From the NCBI GenBank assembly GCA_900316145.1, contig ONBQ01000043.1, positions 1 to 34,041 of the forward strand: a stretch of 34,041 bases of DNA, in the 5' to 3' direction. Of this stretch, positions 1,755 through 15,669 are shown piece by piece; within the stretch, counting starts at the first letter, position 1; each line of letters begins with the position of its first letter. A model generated the notes under the pieces. The model did no database searches, was not told where the DNA came from, and saw only the letters and a program-made list of their open reading frames with translations. This DNA comes from an uncultured Eubacteriales bacterium. Its GTDB lineage: Bacteria > Bacillota > Clostridia > Lachnospirales > Bianqueaceae. The position numbers and the translations under genes were made by a program.

Positions 1755-3551
1755 TTATTTCTTGTACATAGGACCAAAGTTCTTGCAGGCTCTGTAGTCC
1801 GCGCCTTCCTTGTCCATGCCGAACGCGTTCCAGGCAGCCGGACGGAAGATGTCCTTCTCCGGTACATTGTGCATGCAGACCGGGATACGAAGGATGGAGC
1901 ACAGGGTGATGAGGTCGGCACCAATGTGGCCATAGGAGATAGCACCATGGTTGGCACCCCAGTTGTTCATAACACTGTAAGCATCCTTGAACGGACCTTC
2001 CTTACCATCGCAACGCGGCGCGAACCATGTGCAAGGCCAGGTGTAGTCAGTTCTCTTCCACAGCGTGTCAGAAACTTCTTCCGGCAGATTGACCGTCCAG
2101 CCTTCTGCGATCTGCAGGACCGGGCCCTGACCATGGATCAGGTTCAGACGGATCATGGTAGCCGGCATCTCAGCACGGGTCTCATAACGAGAGGAATATC
2201 CGCCGCCACGGAAGTAACCGAAGTCAGCCGGGCACCACTCGGTAGCAGCCATAATGGCATCCTGATCTTCCGGAGTGACTTCCCACCACTTCTTCATCTC
2301 AGGCTCGCCCTTCTCATTGATAGCACGGCCGTTCGCATCCAGGCAGGCAGCGCCGGAGTTGATCAGATGGATGAAACCATCTGCATCCTTGGCATGACCT
2401 TCGATGTCATAACCGGTTACGCGCTTGACCGCGTTGCCGCTCCAATAGGTACGGACATCCGCGAAGATCTGTGCGCGGTTGGTCAGAAGCTTCATGAACA
2501 GCATGCCCAGACCATTGAGGATATCATTCTCAGTGGCCAGGATGTACGGCTCACGAGCACCGTTCCAGTCGAAGGAAGTGTTCAGCAGAGCTTCCGGGAA
2601 GTCGCAGTTCGGATAGAAGTCTGTCCACTGACGCTGACCCTGGAAACCTGCGGCGATGGCATTGTGACCGACCATCTCTTCTTCGCAGCCTTCCGGCAGA
2701 TTCTTGTTGCCGTTCATGAGGTCTTTGATGATGCACATCATCTTGACGACGAAATCCCACTTATCTTTGACCATAGGACGGTCACGAAGCTCTTCCGGGT
2801 TCTTGTCAAAGCCCATTATGCACTTCTCTTTGACCCATACCATAGCCTTCTCATACTCGGCCTTGTCATAGATGCCCTCGGTCATGCGGCGGATGATCTC
2901 AACCTCGTCGATAGACTCAACACGCATACCCAGATATTCTTCGATGAAATCCTGATTCATGATAGAACCGCCGATACCCATGGTAACGGAACCGATCTGC
3001 AGATAGCTCTTACCACGCATGGTAGCGGCAGCAACAGCGGCACGGCCAAAGCGAAGAAGCTTCTCTTTGACATCTTCCGTGATCGGATAATCATCCATAT
3101 CCAGTACTTCATGACCATAGATGCCGAAAGCCGGCAGGCCTTTCTGCGCATGAGTAGCCAGAACGGAAGCAAGATATACAGCACCCGGACGCTCGGTACC
3201 ATTGAAGCCCCAAACGGCCTTAATGGTATTGCGGTCCATGTCCATCGTTTCAGAACCATAGCACCAGCAAGGAGTGACGGTAACGGTGATGTCAACGCCT
3301 TCCTTCTTGAACTTCTCGGCGCAGGCGGCGCTCTCTGCTACGCGGCCGATGGTGGTATCAGCGATGACGACCTTAACAGGCTCGCCATTGGAATAGCAAA
3401 GATTCTGCTCATAAAGCTCTTTGACCGCTTTCGCCATGCCCATGGTCTGGTCTTCCAAAGACTCGCGGACCTTCAAAGGACCACGACGACCATCGATGGT
3501 CGGACGGATACCGATGACCGGGTACTCGCCAACATATCTGTTTTCTGCCAT
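1755..3551 (-). CDS. fucI: L-fucose isomerase
   Basis: Cytoplasmic, Mn-dependent aldose-ketose isomerase that converts L-fucose to L-fuculose, the first step of fucose catabolism; the family also acts on D-arabinose. It has 598 residues against 591 in E. coli, and family blocks run from end to end: [10 protein letters not shown] near the N-terminus, [38 protein letters not shown], and the metal-site segments ATENDILNG (Glu), FADVRTYW (Asp) and NWGANHG (His). The C-terminus [14 protein letters not shown] is the typical ending. ATG 3551 follows GGAGG. It is preceded by a regulated promoter and palindrome, and followed by its own terminator. No fuculokinase or fuculose-phosphate aldolase gene is visible, so the rest of the pathway must lie elsewhere. 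Confident on family and reaction. Confidence 0.98.
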
Positions 3552-3571
3552 TGTATGACCTCCTTATTTTT

Positions 3572-3597
3572 GATACTATACCAATTGGTATAGTATC
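3572..3597. promoter_or_regulatory. Perfect 26-bp palindromic operator upstream of fucI
   Basis: A perfect dyad centred between 3584 and 3585, with core ATACCAATTGGTAT and half-site TTGGTATAGTAT. It lies just downstream of the expected transcription start, between the -10 box and the ribosome binding site, which is a classic repressor position. The half-site resembles GntR-family sugar regulators (inference). The same half-site recurs at 3705-3727. Confidence 0.8.
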
Positions 3598-3609
3598 TGT
3601 ATGCTTTGA

Positions 3610-3618
3610 ATTATAACA
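3610..3618 (-). promoter_or_regulatory. Extended -10 promoter of fucI
   Basis: Minus strand TGTTATAAT: a perfect TATAAT (3610-3615) with the TGn extension. No good -35 lies 17 bp upstream; a TTGACG at 3642-3647 is 26 bp away and too far. The extended -10 probably compensates. The predicted start is near 3603, immediately before the palindrome. Confidence 0.65.
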
Positions 3619-3704
3619 AGTTTACCATTCTGATTCTGGAACGTCAAGGGAAAACCAAGAAATGTCACAAAAAACAAAACGAAAAAGCAAATTCTATGCA
3701 AAGT

Positions 3705-3727
3705 TTGGTATAGTTTAGCTATACCAA
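3705..3727. promoter_or_regulatory. Second operator-like inverted repeat overlapping a stop codon
   Basis: Arms TTGGTATAG (3705-3713) and CTATACCAA (3719-3727) are perfect inverted copies separated by 5 bp. They match the half-site of the fucI palindrome. The right arm encodes the last residues (Trp-Tyr-Ser) of the glycosidase-like protein, and the TAA stop at 3715-3717 lies in the spacer. Confidence 0.7.
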
Positions 3728-5697
3728 TCCTCCTCATCCGCCTTCATCAGCAGCAAGGATGCCTCACACCAGCACCCCGTCTCGTATACGCCTCCGATCT
3801 TATCAAACCCCTCCCAATCGCACGTACTGACCCGTTCGCACATAAAACCAGGAGGAGAAGCCTTGCTGCGATCATAATTCCACAGCGGACGGTTGGCCCG
3901 TGAAAGATACTGGGGGATATTGCTTCTGGTGTCCTCACTGATCCTCAGGTAGATCGGATCATTCAAAGCCCGGCTGAGCCTGGCCATCGCGGACCCGGAA
4001 AACGTGCAGGGTCCCGGCGCGCCATGCTTATTCTGCACATTAGCCCATACCGCGCCGGTCGTGACCATTCCGGCCTCCTGAAACATGCTCCCCTCCGGGA
4101 AGGGATAATCATAGGGCATGCACCATGTGGTATAGATGGCGGCCGCGAATCGCGCTCTTTTCAGCCATGTCTCCTGCCCGGTCTTCTCATACAGCATCAT
4201 ATAGCTCTCCAGAAGGGCATACGCGCTTTCAGAATCCGGCGCGGACAAGATCTCTCCCGGACCGCCTCCGATCACCCCTGTCTGCAGCACTTTGCGGTCA
4301 AACATCTCCCCTATTTCTTCCGCCGCCTGTCTGTAATGATCCTCCTTGAAATACTCGGCCGCCAGAAGGAGCCCCGCCGGTACCAAGGCGCCGGCCGCTG
4401 ACCCTCCGACCAGGATCCGTCCGGTATCCACGTCAATGAACTGCCCCAGCTGTCTATAGGTCTGAAACAGTGTCACGAAAGCATCTGCCGCTTTTCTTGC
4501 TCCTTGGACCCACAAAGGATCCGGGATCTCCCGGCGCAGACGCATTCTGAGAAGGATCCGGAGGGAAAAATACAACGCGTCCGCGCTTTTGCGCACCATC
4601 GCGAAAGCCTTGTTGTCCTGATCGTAAAAATCATCCCCATAGATATTGCTGCCGTCGGAAATACCGTAGAAAAAACCGGTCGGAGCCTGCATATGACGGA
4701 ACATGAAATCCATCGTAGCCTTTGCTCTGCCTCTTGAGACCGGATTGCCGCTTCTGTACAAGGCATAAGCAGCATTGATCCCTCCGACCCAGCCTGTCTG
4801 CCAGATACTGAAGATATTCTGTCCCTCGCCGGTCTGATAGAAGGCCCCGTCCTTTTTCCAATTATACTGGTTGTACTTCTGTTCGACCAGCCGGAACCCT
4901 CCATTGATGGACGGCGTACCGTTTTCACCCGGTTCCCGCCTGGTCCTTGTGCCGGCCAATGGGTCCTCTTTGTGGGATAAGCGCAGAACGATCTGGAAAA
5001 ACACATCCAGTGAATCACAGGAAAAGGCATACTGCTCAACGATCAAAGAAGCCCTATCGCCCTTTTGCAGCACTCCCGCCTTATCCTCACAGGGAACTTT
5101 GCTGGAGATCGCTCCGAACCGGTACATGCCATCGTTCCTCACGATCGGATCCATGATCGTGATCGAAAGACCTTCTTCCGATTCCCGGAGCACGACCCCG
5201 TTTTCCCCCAGGGCACCATGTCTGGAGCGGCATTCATACAAAAAAGCAAGTCCCTTTCCGCTTGTCCGATGGTACAGAAACACAGCCGGAAGCGAACTGT
5301 CCCCGGCGCGCAGAGAGATCACGCTCTCCCCCTCCTGCTCAAAATGCGGAATATCTGTCACCGTTACCGGTGGATCCAGCTCATATTCCGAATGGTCGAA
5401 CATCGGCGGATAATTCTGCTTTTTGATCTTGAAGCGGTTGCCGTCATACACCGCGGCAGGGATCAGCAGATAATCCTCCCTCTTCCACTCCGGATCCTGA
5501 AAGGACAGGCACAGGCTCACATCTTCCAGTGTTTTTTCCGCCGCAAAGATCGCTTCATAGCGCTCCCCGCGGACCACTCCTTCCGGAAAACTCTCCTCTA
5601 TAGGCGCAGAACCCCATGAAAGCCTTCCGGCTTCATGAGGTTCTATTGTTTGTGGAGGATCGCTCCACAGTCGCATCTTACATTCAGGTCTCAGCAT
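3715..5697 (-). CDS. Unassigned protein resembling (alpha/alpha)6-barrel glycosidases
   Basis: No family could be assigned. The 660 residues divide into an N-terminal beta-rich part (about 1-255) and a C-terminal helical part (about 265-660) with spaced aromatic/Gly motifs such as FSIWQTGWVGG, APTGFFYGISDG, YDQDNKAFAM, MLYEKTGQETW, TTWCMPYDYPF and YETGCWCEASL. This layout is typical of six-hairpin glycosidases with a beta-sandwich in front. There is no signal peptide or membrane segment, so the protein is cytoplasmic and would act on imported oligosaccharides. The start ATG overlaps the kinase stop codon as ATGCTGA; the nearest purine-rich site is about 18 bp upstream, so translational coupling is likely. 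No terminator separates it from fucI, so read-through is possible. Context suggests a role in host-glycan use. Alternative: a glycan-binding or scaffold protein without catalysis. Confidence 0.6.
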   Translation of the reverse strand: MLRPECKMRLWSDPPQTIEPHEAGRLSWGSAPIEESFPEGVVRGERYEAIFAAEKTLEDVSLCLSFQDPEWKREDYLLIPAAVYDGNRFKIKKQNYPPMFDHSEYELDPPVTVTDIPHFEQEGESVISLRAGDSSLPAVFLYHRTSGKGLAFLYECRSRHGALGENGVVLRESEEGLSITIMDPIVRNDGMYRFGAISSKVPCEDKAGVLQKGDRASLIVEQYAFSCDSLDVFFQIVLRLSHKEDPLAGTRTRREPGENGTPSINGGFRLVEQKYNQYNWKKDGAFYQTGEGQNIFSIWQTGWVGGINAAYALYRSGNPVSRGRAKATMDFMFRHMQAPTGFFYGISDGSNIYGDDFYDQDNKAFAMVRKSADALYFSLRILLRMRLRREIPDPLWVQGARKAADAFVTLFQTYRQLGQFIDVDTGRILVGGSAAGALVPAGLLLAAEYFKEDHYRQAAEEIGEMFDRKVLQTGVIGGGPGEILSAPDSESAYALLESYMMLYEKTGQETWLKRARFAAAIYTTWCMPYDYPFPEGSMFQEAGMVTTGAVWANVQNKHGAPGPCTFSGSAMARLSRALNDPIYLRISEDTRSNIPQYLSRANRPLWNYDRSKASPPGFMCERVSTCDWEGFDKIGGVYETGCWCEASLLLMKADEEDWYS

Positions 5698-14764: not shown

Positions 14765-14780
14765 TTTATAGTAAACGTTT

Positions 14781-14888
14781 CTTCAGGGCAGGGTGTGATC
14801 CCCGACCGGCGGTATAGTCCGCGAACCACCTTGGTGGCCGATCCGGTTAGATTCCGGTACCGACAGTTATAGTCTGGATGAGAGAAGA
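14781..14888 (+). ncRNA. FMN riboswitch (RFN element)
   Basis: The conserved RFN blocks appear in order: TTCAGGGCAGGGTG, CCCGACCGGCGGTATAGTCC, then a variable helix CCACC/GGTGG, ATTCCGGTACCGACAG and AGTCTGGATGAGAGAAG. It binds flavin mononucleotide and lowers expression of the riboflavin transporter gene when FMN is plentiful. Confidence 0.96.
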
Positions 14889-14922
14889 AAGCATTGTTTT
14901 AAGCTGCATTGTTTTTTCTCTG

Positions 14923-14953
14923 CCCGGAAGGATCTCTTCCGGGTCTTTTTATT
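14923..14953 (+). terminator. Riboswitch expression-platform terminator
   Basis: Hairpin CCCGGAAG / CTTCCGGG (arms 14923-14930 and 14936-14943) followed by TCTTTTTATTT. It lies between the aptamer and the ribU ribosome binding site, so FMN control is probably by premature termination. Confidence 0.88.
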
Positions 14954-14994
14954 TCCCTGGACCTACGAAATATTTCATTTTCAGGAGGTTCCTA

Positions 14995-15669
14995 ATGCAA
15001 AACGAAAACACAAAAAGAATGGTCACATTGGCTATGATGGCTGCTTTGGCCTATCTGTTGATGGCTGTCGTCCGTATTCCCATAACGCCGGCTCCCCTGG
15101 TGCTGAAATACGAACCCAAGGACATCATCATCACGATCGCGGGCTTCATCTATGGCCCTCTGTCTGCCTTTCTCGTCTCCTTTGTCGTAACTCTGATCGA
15201 AATGGTTACGGTCAGTGAAACGGGTTGGATCGGCGCGGTCATGAATCTTTTGTCCACTGTCAGCTTTGCCTGTCTGGCCGCTTTCGTTTACAAGAAAAAC
15301 CGCACCCTGAAAGGCGCGGTCATCGGTCTGCTTCTTGGTGTCGTGGCTATGGTCATCGTCATGCTGTTATGGAATTATCTGCTGACGCCCATCTATATGG
15401 GATATCCGCGTGAGGCGGTCGCTGCCATGCTGCCGACGGTTTTTCTTCCCTTTAACCTCATCAAAGGCGGTCTGAACGCAGCCATCACCATGATCCTTTA
15501 CAAGCCGCTTGTCATCACGCTGCGTAAAGCGCATCTGGTACCCGAGTCCTCTCATCTTCCGGAAGACAAGTCAGGCCTTCATCAGATCAGTCCCGGCGTC
15601 ATGATCACCGCTGTGATCTGCCTGATCACGCTGATCCTCTTCGCGCTGGTTCTGGCCGGTAAGCTTTGA
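14995..15669 (+). CDS. ribU: Riboflavin ECF transporter S component RibU
   Basis: Membrane substrate-binding subunit of an energy-coupling-factor transporter for riboflavin, 224 residues. Hydrophobic segments span most of the protein: about residues 12-30, 37-75, 80-100, 108-130, 145-165 and 195-220. The block LKYEPKDIIITIAGFIYGPL and the GxxxG-rich first helix are typical of RibU. The start is ATG 14995, 6 bp after AGGAGG; a longer in-frame start at 14878 lies inside the riboswitch and is excluded. The FMN riboswitch upstream confirms the substrate. The shared ECF ATPases are not in the window. Confidence 0.95.
   Translation: MQNENTKRMVTLAMMAALAYLLMAVVRIPITPAPLVLKYEPKDIIITIAGFIYGPLSAFLVSFVVTLIEMVTVSETGWIGAVMNLLSTVSFACLAAFVYKKNRTLKGAVIGLLLGVVAMVIVMLLWNYLLTPIYMGYPREAVAAMLPTVFLPFNLIKGGLNAAITMILYKPLVITLRKAHLVPESSHLPEDKSGLHQISPGVMITAVICLITLILFALVLAGKL

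Follow-up and report, generated by a model that had tools for sequence, protein, structure and literature searches.

The locus described here raises a simple question: which protein reads the two palindromes that lie on either side of the fucI promoter, and with what effect on the gene? Fucose is a main sugar of gut mucus, and fucI (1755-3551, minus strand, in the window, our term for the whole 34,041-nucleotide stretch of DNA analyzed) encodes a 598-aa L-fucose isomerase that scores above the cut-offs of two NCBIfam equivalogs (NF008220, 1022.6 against 775; TIGR01089, 959.7 against 850) and carries Pfam Fucose_iso domains. Its promoter reads TTGACG-17-TAAACT, with 17 bp between the -35 hexamer (3642-3647, minus strand) and the TG-extended -10 hexamer (3619-3624, minus strand), and is conserved in two genomes of the same genus, G003 and G001, where the aligned -35 is TTGACT in both and the -10 is TAAACT and TACAAT, respectively. 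The ribosome-binding site recognized by sequence reading, TAAGGAGG (3559-3566, minus strand), is invariant in the same two genomes. Upstream lies an ORF of 660 aa (3715-5697, minus strand) for which no Pfam or NCBIfam family was found.

Several features of the surroundings deserve mention in their own right. After fucI, G003 and G001 carry a glycerol-3-phosphate-dehydrogenase-like gene and a gene for a ribulokinase-like FGGY kinase, then a glutathione peroxidase gene (L134:3093-5503; L135:11029-13944); in the window, both of the former are missing between fucI and the glutathione peroxidase gene (1590-1754). Elsewhere in the window, an FMN riboswitch (14775-14893, plus strand) precedes a gene (14878-15669) for a membrane protein that resembles a subunit of an ECF riboflavin transporter. 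Another contig of the same genome, G000:C166, holds a cluster (L140:812-8054) that encodes a rhamnulokinase-like kinase and a class II aldolase together with aldehyde and alcohol dehydrogenases, a regulator of the DeoR family, and a small protein similar to microcompartment shell proteins; this is likely a downstream route for fucose or rhamnose.

Site 1, the candidate downstream operator in the fucI leader, is GATACTATACCAATTGGTATAGTATC (3572-3597, no strand assigned), the perfect 26-bp palindrome that an earlier note on this DNA had reported. Site 2, the candidate upstream operator, is TTGGTATAG-TTTAG-CTATACCAA (3705-3727, no strand assigned). The centers, at 3584.5 and 3716, are 131.5 bp apart, within the 131 to 132 bp given earlier, and the extended -10 promoter does lie between them, as had been claimed. 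The two sites were also thought to match. They share the TTGGTATAG half-site, but its orientation is opposite: half-sites are everted in site 1 (TATACC-N4-GGTATA) and inverted in site 2 (TTGGTATA-N7-TATACCAA, that is, GGTATA-N7-TATACC), and therefore the one is not a copy of the other. No gapless palindrome in the window is longer than site 1, the runner-up having 8-bp arms, and arms of 13 bp occur at a frequency of 5e-5 among simulated intergenic regions; the four exact TTGGTATAG half-sites of the whole window all fall within sites 1 and 2. A genome-wide search finds each site once in 2.56 Mb. No further copy of the N7 dyad is present in this genome, where matches with three mismatches are few and little above a reversed-pattern control, and matches to the everted dyad with one mismatch are at control level. 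The expectation of other copies near sugar genes thus failed in the window's genome, where fucI is the only target found, and held in five relatives that have such sites at their own fucI.

Comparison with relatives began with the 80 closest fucI loci in genome_contigs, from which both sites are absent, and then turned to whole genomes. Both dyads are kept in G003, and the absence of conservation that would have spoken against the earlier reading is thus not seen. There the counterpart of site 1, GAAATATACCAATTGGTATATTTC, lies ahead of the ribosome-binding site, and its arms have changed symmetrically relative to those in the window; the counterpart of site 2, TTGGTATAGTTAAAATATACC, has one degraded arm. 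Center spacing is again 131.5 bp, and the segment that separates the site cores measures exactly 114 bp in G003 as in the window (two genomes only). Ungapped identity over that segment is 30%, against 28% for shuffles, which is chance level; indels have therefore occurred, yet the total length has been kept. The same comparison bears on the partly coding nature of site 2. In the window, the upstream ORF runs into the site, with its stop codon (3715-3717) in the spacer and the right arm encoding its Trp-Tyr-Ser end, as the earlier note had it. We rejected this overlap as a functional feature: since the G003 site starts just past the stop codon of the upstream gene, the overlap is, by this comparison, incidental, a local accident in the window's genome.

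The regulator was reached from the operator side, through the genomes that keep the sites, which is how a trans-encoded protein came into view. G019, a genome of the same order, has TTGGTATATAAAACATATACCAA ahead of its fucI; the gene that diverges from fucI there specifies a protein in which a GntR winged helix is fused to a LacI-type sugar-binding domain. A search with this protein returned orthologues divergent from fucI in G207, G065, G196, and G172, so that five order-level relatives share the arrangement, with N7 dyads in between. The window's own genome also encodes an orthologue, on another contig (G000:C130:27367-28410), and so does G003 (C231), whose copy is 72 to 74% identical to the first; neither gene is adjacent to fucI. 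The proteins of the window's genome and of G019 are reciprocal best hits by a wide margin, and all seven orthologues share a conserved recognition-helix region. In the window's genome, the N-terminus matches the GntR winged helix (PF00392, 61.6 bits, cut-off 27) and the AraR DNA-binding domain 4egy (9.2e-7), while the C-terminus matches GalR/LacI-like sugar-binding domains (PF13377, 109 bits; PF00532, 68 bits). Judged by its domains, the protein belongs to the AraR subfamily within the GntR family, the latter being what had been predicted, and we call it FucR. Four GntR genes of this genome exceed the family cut-off, and only the fucR product has a LacI-like sensor; the others are of the MocR, FadR, and YtrA types, with one further match below the cut-off.

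FucR is rare. It occurs in 8 of 392 genomes of the order (E up to 1e-45); at the same threshold, 391 genomes of the class yield no additional orthologue except the window's own, and 24 genomes of the G019 family yield none beyond the five known. A distant match in G041 was not used as an orthologue, being 34% identical and not beside fucI. No orthologue was found in G001 or G002; the G002 fucI contig ends just upstream of the gene. Upstream of fucR itself, in G000 and G003, there is no clear autoregulatory site, merely weak GGTGTA/TATACT pieces near the promoter. On G000:C130 (L138:5368-10191), the genes after fucR encode a GH36 enzyme (melibiase) and an arylsulfatase, and the GH36 leader contains a small dyad, GGTATC-ACA-GATACC.

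Among fucI upstream regions, the N7 dyad is present at zero to three mismatches in 7/7 from genomes with the regulator and in none of 96 others, where the best match in each has at least four mismatches; the direct search for regulator absence covered the whole genomes only, as distinct from the 80 genome_contigs loci. The seven genomes form two groups (two of genus g1, five of family f2) and therefore represent fewer than seven independent events. The 80 loci lacking the sites had been considered as a refutation; this was dropped, as the dyads occur among the whole genomes searched only in carriers of the regulator. Some other regulator, such as one whose gene lies in the portion absent from this genome, which is 91.9% complete, might bind the dyads instead: fucR is not beside fucI in G000 or G003, and its GH36 and arylsulfatase neighbors have no clear site. 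We consider this very unlikely. The joint presence of FucR and dyad at seven loci, with the dyad missing from the 96 others, is hard to reconcile with it, as is the position of the FucR gene next to both dyad and fucI in five genomes; with FucR so rare in the order, chance overlap with the dyad is improbable.

Within the genus, G001 offers a contrasting case. This genome, which lacks FucR, has another palindrome, TGAAACATGCCGCCCGGCACGTTTCA, in its fucI leader exactly at the position of the downstream operator (L083:1380-1500), unique among the four genus genomes, as well as CGAAACGTTTCG between -35 and -10; a GAAAC half-site is common to both. These look like replacement by another regulator, and the genus would then display regulatory turnover. 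The persistence of a palindrome with other arms also invites the idea that site 1 functions at the RNA level as a hairpin, instead of or in addition to being a DNA operator, influencing mRNA stability or translation. Immediately ahead of the ribosome-binding site, the leader RNA forms a hairpin of 11 bp (-18.4 kcal/mol, z -6.3), and hairpins occur at the same place in G003 and G001. Such folding is expected of any DNA palindrome, though, and here it leaves the ribosome-binding site free; a search for known RNA elements gave no Rfam family match at the site. Moreover, a site with the same half-site lies upstream of the promoter, and a hairpin accounts neither for that site nor for the co-occurrence with FucR, while the second G001 site, inside the promoter and sharing GAAAC, fits another DNA-binding protein better. 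A role confined to or including RNA is accordingly given little credence.

The reading we favor, with considerable confidence and in line with the interpretation in the earlier note, is that sites 1 and 2 are operators of a trans-encoded FucR repressor that would be released by sugar and perhaps acts by looping. What the comparison shows directly is the sequence, conservation, and spacing of the sites, the family of the regulator, and the co-occurrence of the two; that FucR binds the dyads, and represses rather than activates, we infer, drawing the mechanism at both dyads by analogy with AraR of Bacillus subtilis. With the usual promoter-to-start distance assumed, site 1 would lie at about +15 to +41. 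When inducer is absent, FucR would occupy the upstream and downstream sites and shut the promoter between them; occupied site 1 would by itself block early transcription, and a small DNA loop may join the two bound sites. Fucose or a related sugar would then release FucR and allow fucI expression. Because fucI is the common target and fucU, the L-fucose mutarotase gene, comes next after fucI in G019, the inducer is probably L-fucose or an intermediate of its pathway.

How far the two sites cooperate is a separate matter. An N7 dyad of the site 2 type lies upstream of fucI in G003, G019, G207, G065, G196, and G172, and a second site lies across the promoter region in 7/7 genomes with the regulator. 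This second site is an N7 dyad in G207, G065, G196, and G172, whereas G000 and G003 have the everted palindrome; in G019, where it is weakest, GGTATA elements are grouped more loosely. A direct repeat, TATACC-N5-TATACC, also occurs in G019. In G207 and G196 (L179:7980-8024; L181:7817-7861), two N7 dyads in tandem make up the operator on the upstream side of the fucI promoter, their centers separated by 22 bp, or about two turns of the helix. Center distances between the paired sites are 131.5 bp in G000 and G003, 153 in G207 and G065, 152 in G196, 141 in G172, and 165 in G019; these correspond to multiples of about 11 bp but to half-integers at 10.5, in too few independent cases to speak for or against helical phasing. 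The paired architecture and spacing suggest cooperation or looping. Spacing varies among families, however, from 131.5 to 165 bp, so looping stands on weak grounds. FucR might instead bind the sites independently, in which case site 1 would serve as a roadblock and site 2 would be auxiliary or a relic, a possibility to which we give somewhat under an even chance. This variation would suit it, as would the degraded arm of site 2 in G003, and AraR looping spans shorter distances than those seen here. Independent binding explains less readily why the promoter is flanked by two sites wherever the regulator occurs, and why G000 and G003 have identical spacing despite spacer indels.

What is new here is a very probable regulator of fucose use, together with its operators, in a clostridial-type lineage about which little is known; the kind of sugar switch itself is known. 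Its closest model, AraR of Bacillus subtilis, combines a GntR winged helix with a GalR/LacI-like sensor and counts a sugar-isomerase gene among its targets; at three promoters it occupies a pair of operators cooperatively, with formation of a small DNA loop, and control from single operators is weaker (PMC4218819). It differs in its ATTTGTACGTACAAAT-type operator, its spacing, and its arabinose genes, where the present system has TTGGTATA half-sites in two orientations and fucI as target. The ara box follows a 16-bp consensus, At(T/A)tGTaCGTAcaa(A/T)T (PMC4218819); sites 1 and 2, built from TTGGTATA with another spacing, would work alike but are not ara boxes. Two proteins that share the name FucR invite comparison as well. 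In Bacteroides thetaiotaomicron (BT1272), it likewise belongs to the GntR family and targets one fucose-catabolic operon only, a likeness of family and target, but it comes from another phylum and is encoded inside the fuc operon (PMC3878776). In Caldicellulosiruptor bescii, also a Firmicute, an inferred repressor has more than one site at a fucI operon, but these are in tandem, both in a long 5' leader, and the likeness is one of target gene and site number (PMC8579813).

NanR of Escherichia coli may be instructive for the opposite half-site orientations of the two dyads, which would not be accounted for by a single dimer with a single mode of binding. Like FucR, it belongs to the GntR family; it represses a mucin-sugar pathway and recognizes GGTATA elements, but it is of the FadR rather than the AraR type, its elements form three direct repeats, and its ligand is sialic acid (PMC8012715). 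Each GGTATA of the direct-repeat operator takes one dimer (PMC8012715). A tentative proposal by analogy, somewhat doubtful in our estimation, is that a single AraR-type repressor could read GGTATA as inverted repeats (7 bp between), everted repeats (4 bp), and the direct repeats of G019, with one dimer per element followed by assembly or looping, leaving operator orientation free. One dimer per element, as in NanR, would explain the mixed orientations, the G019 direct repeat included, and the opposed half-sites at fucI would thus be informative about how AraR-type repressors read DNA.
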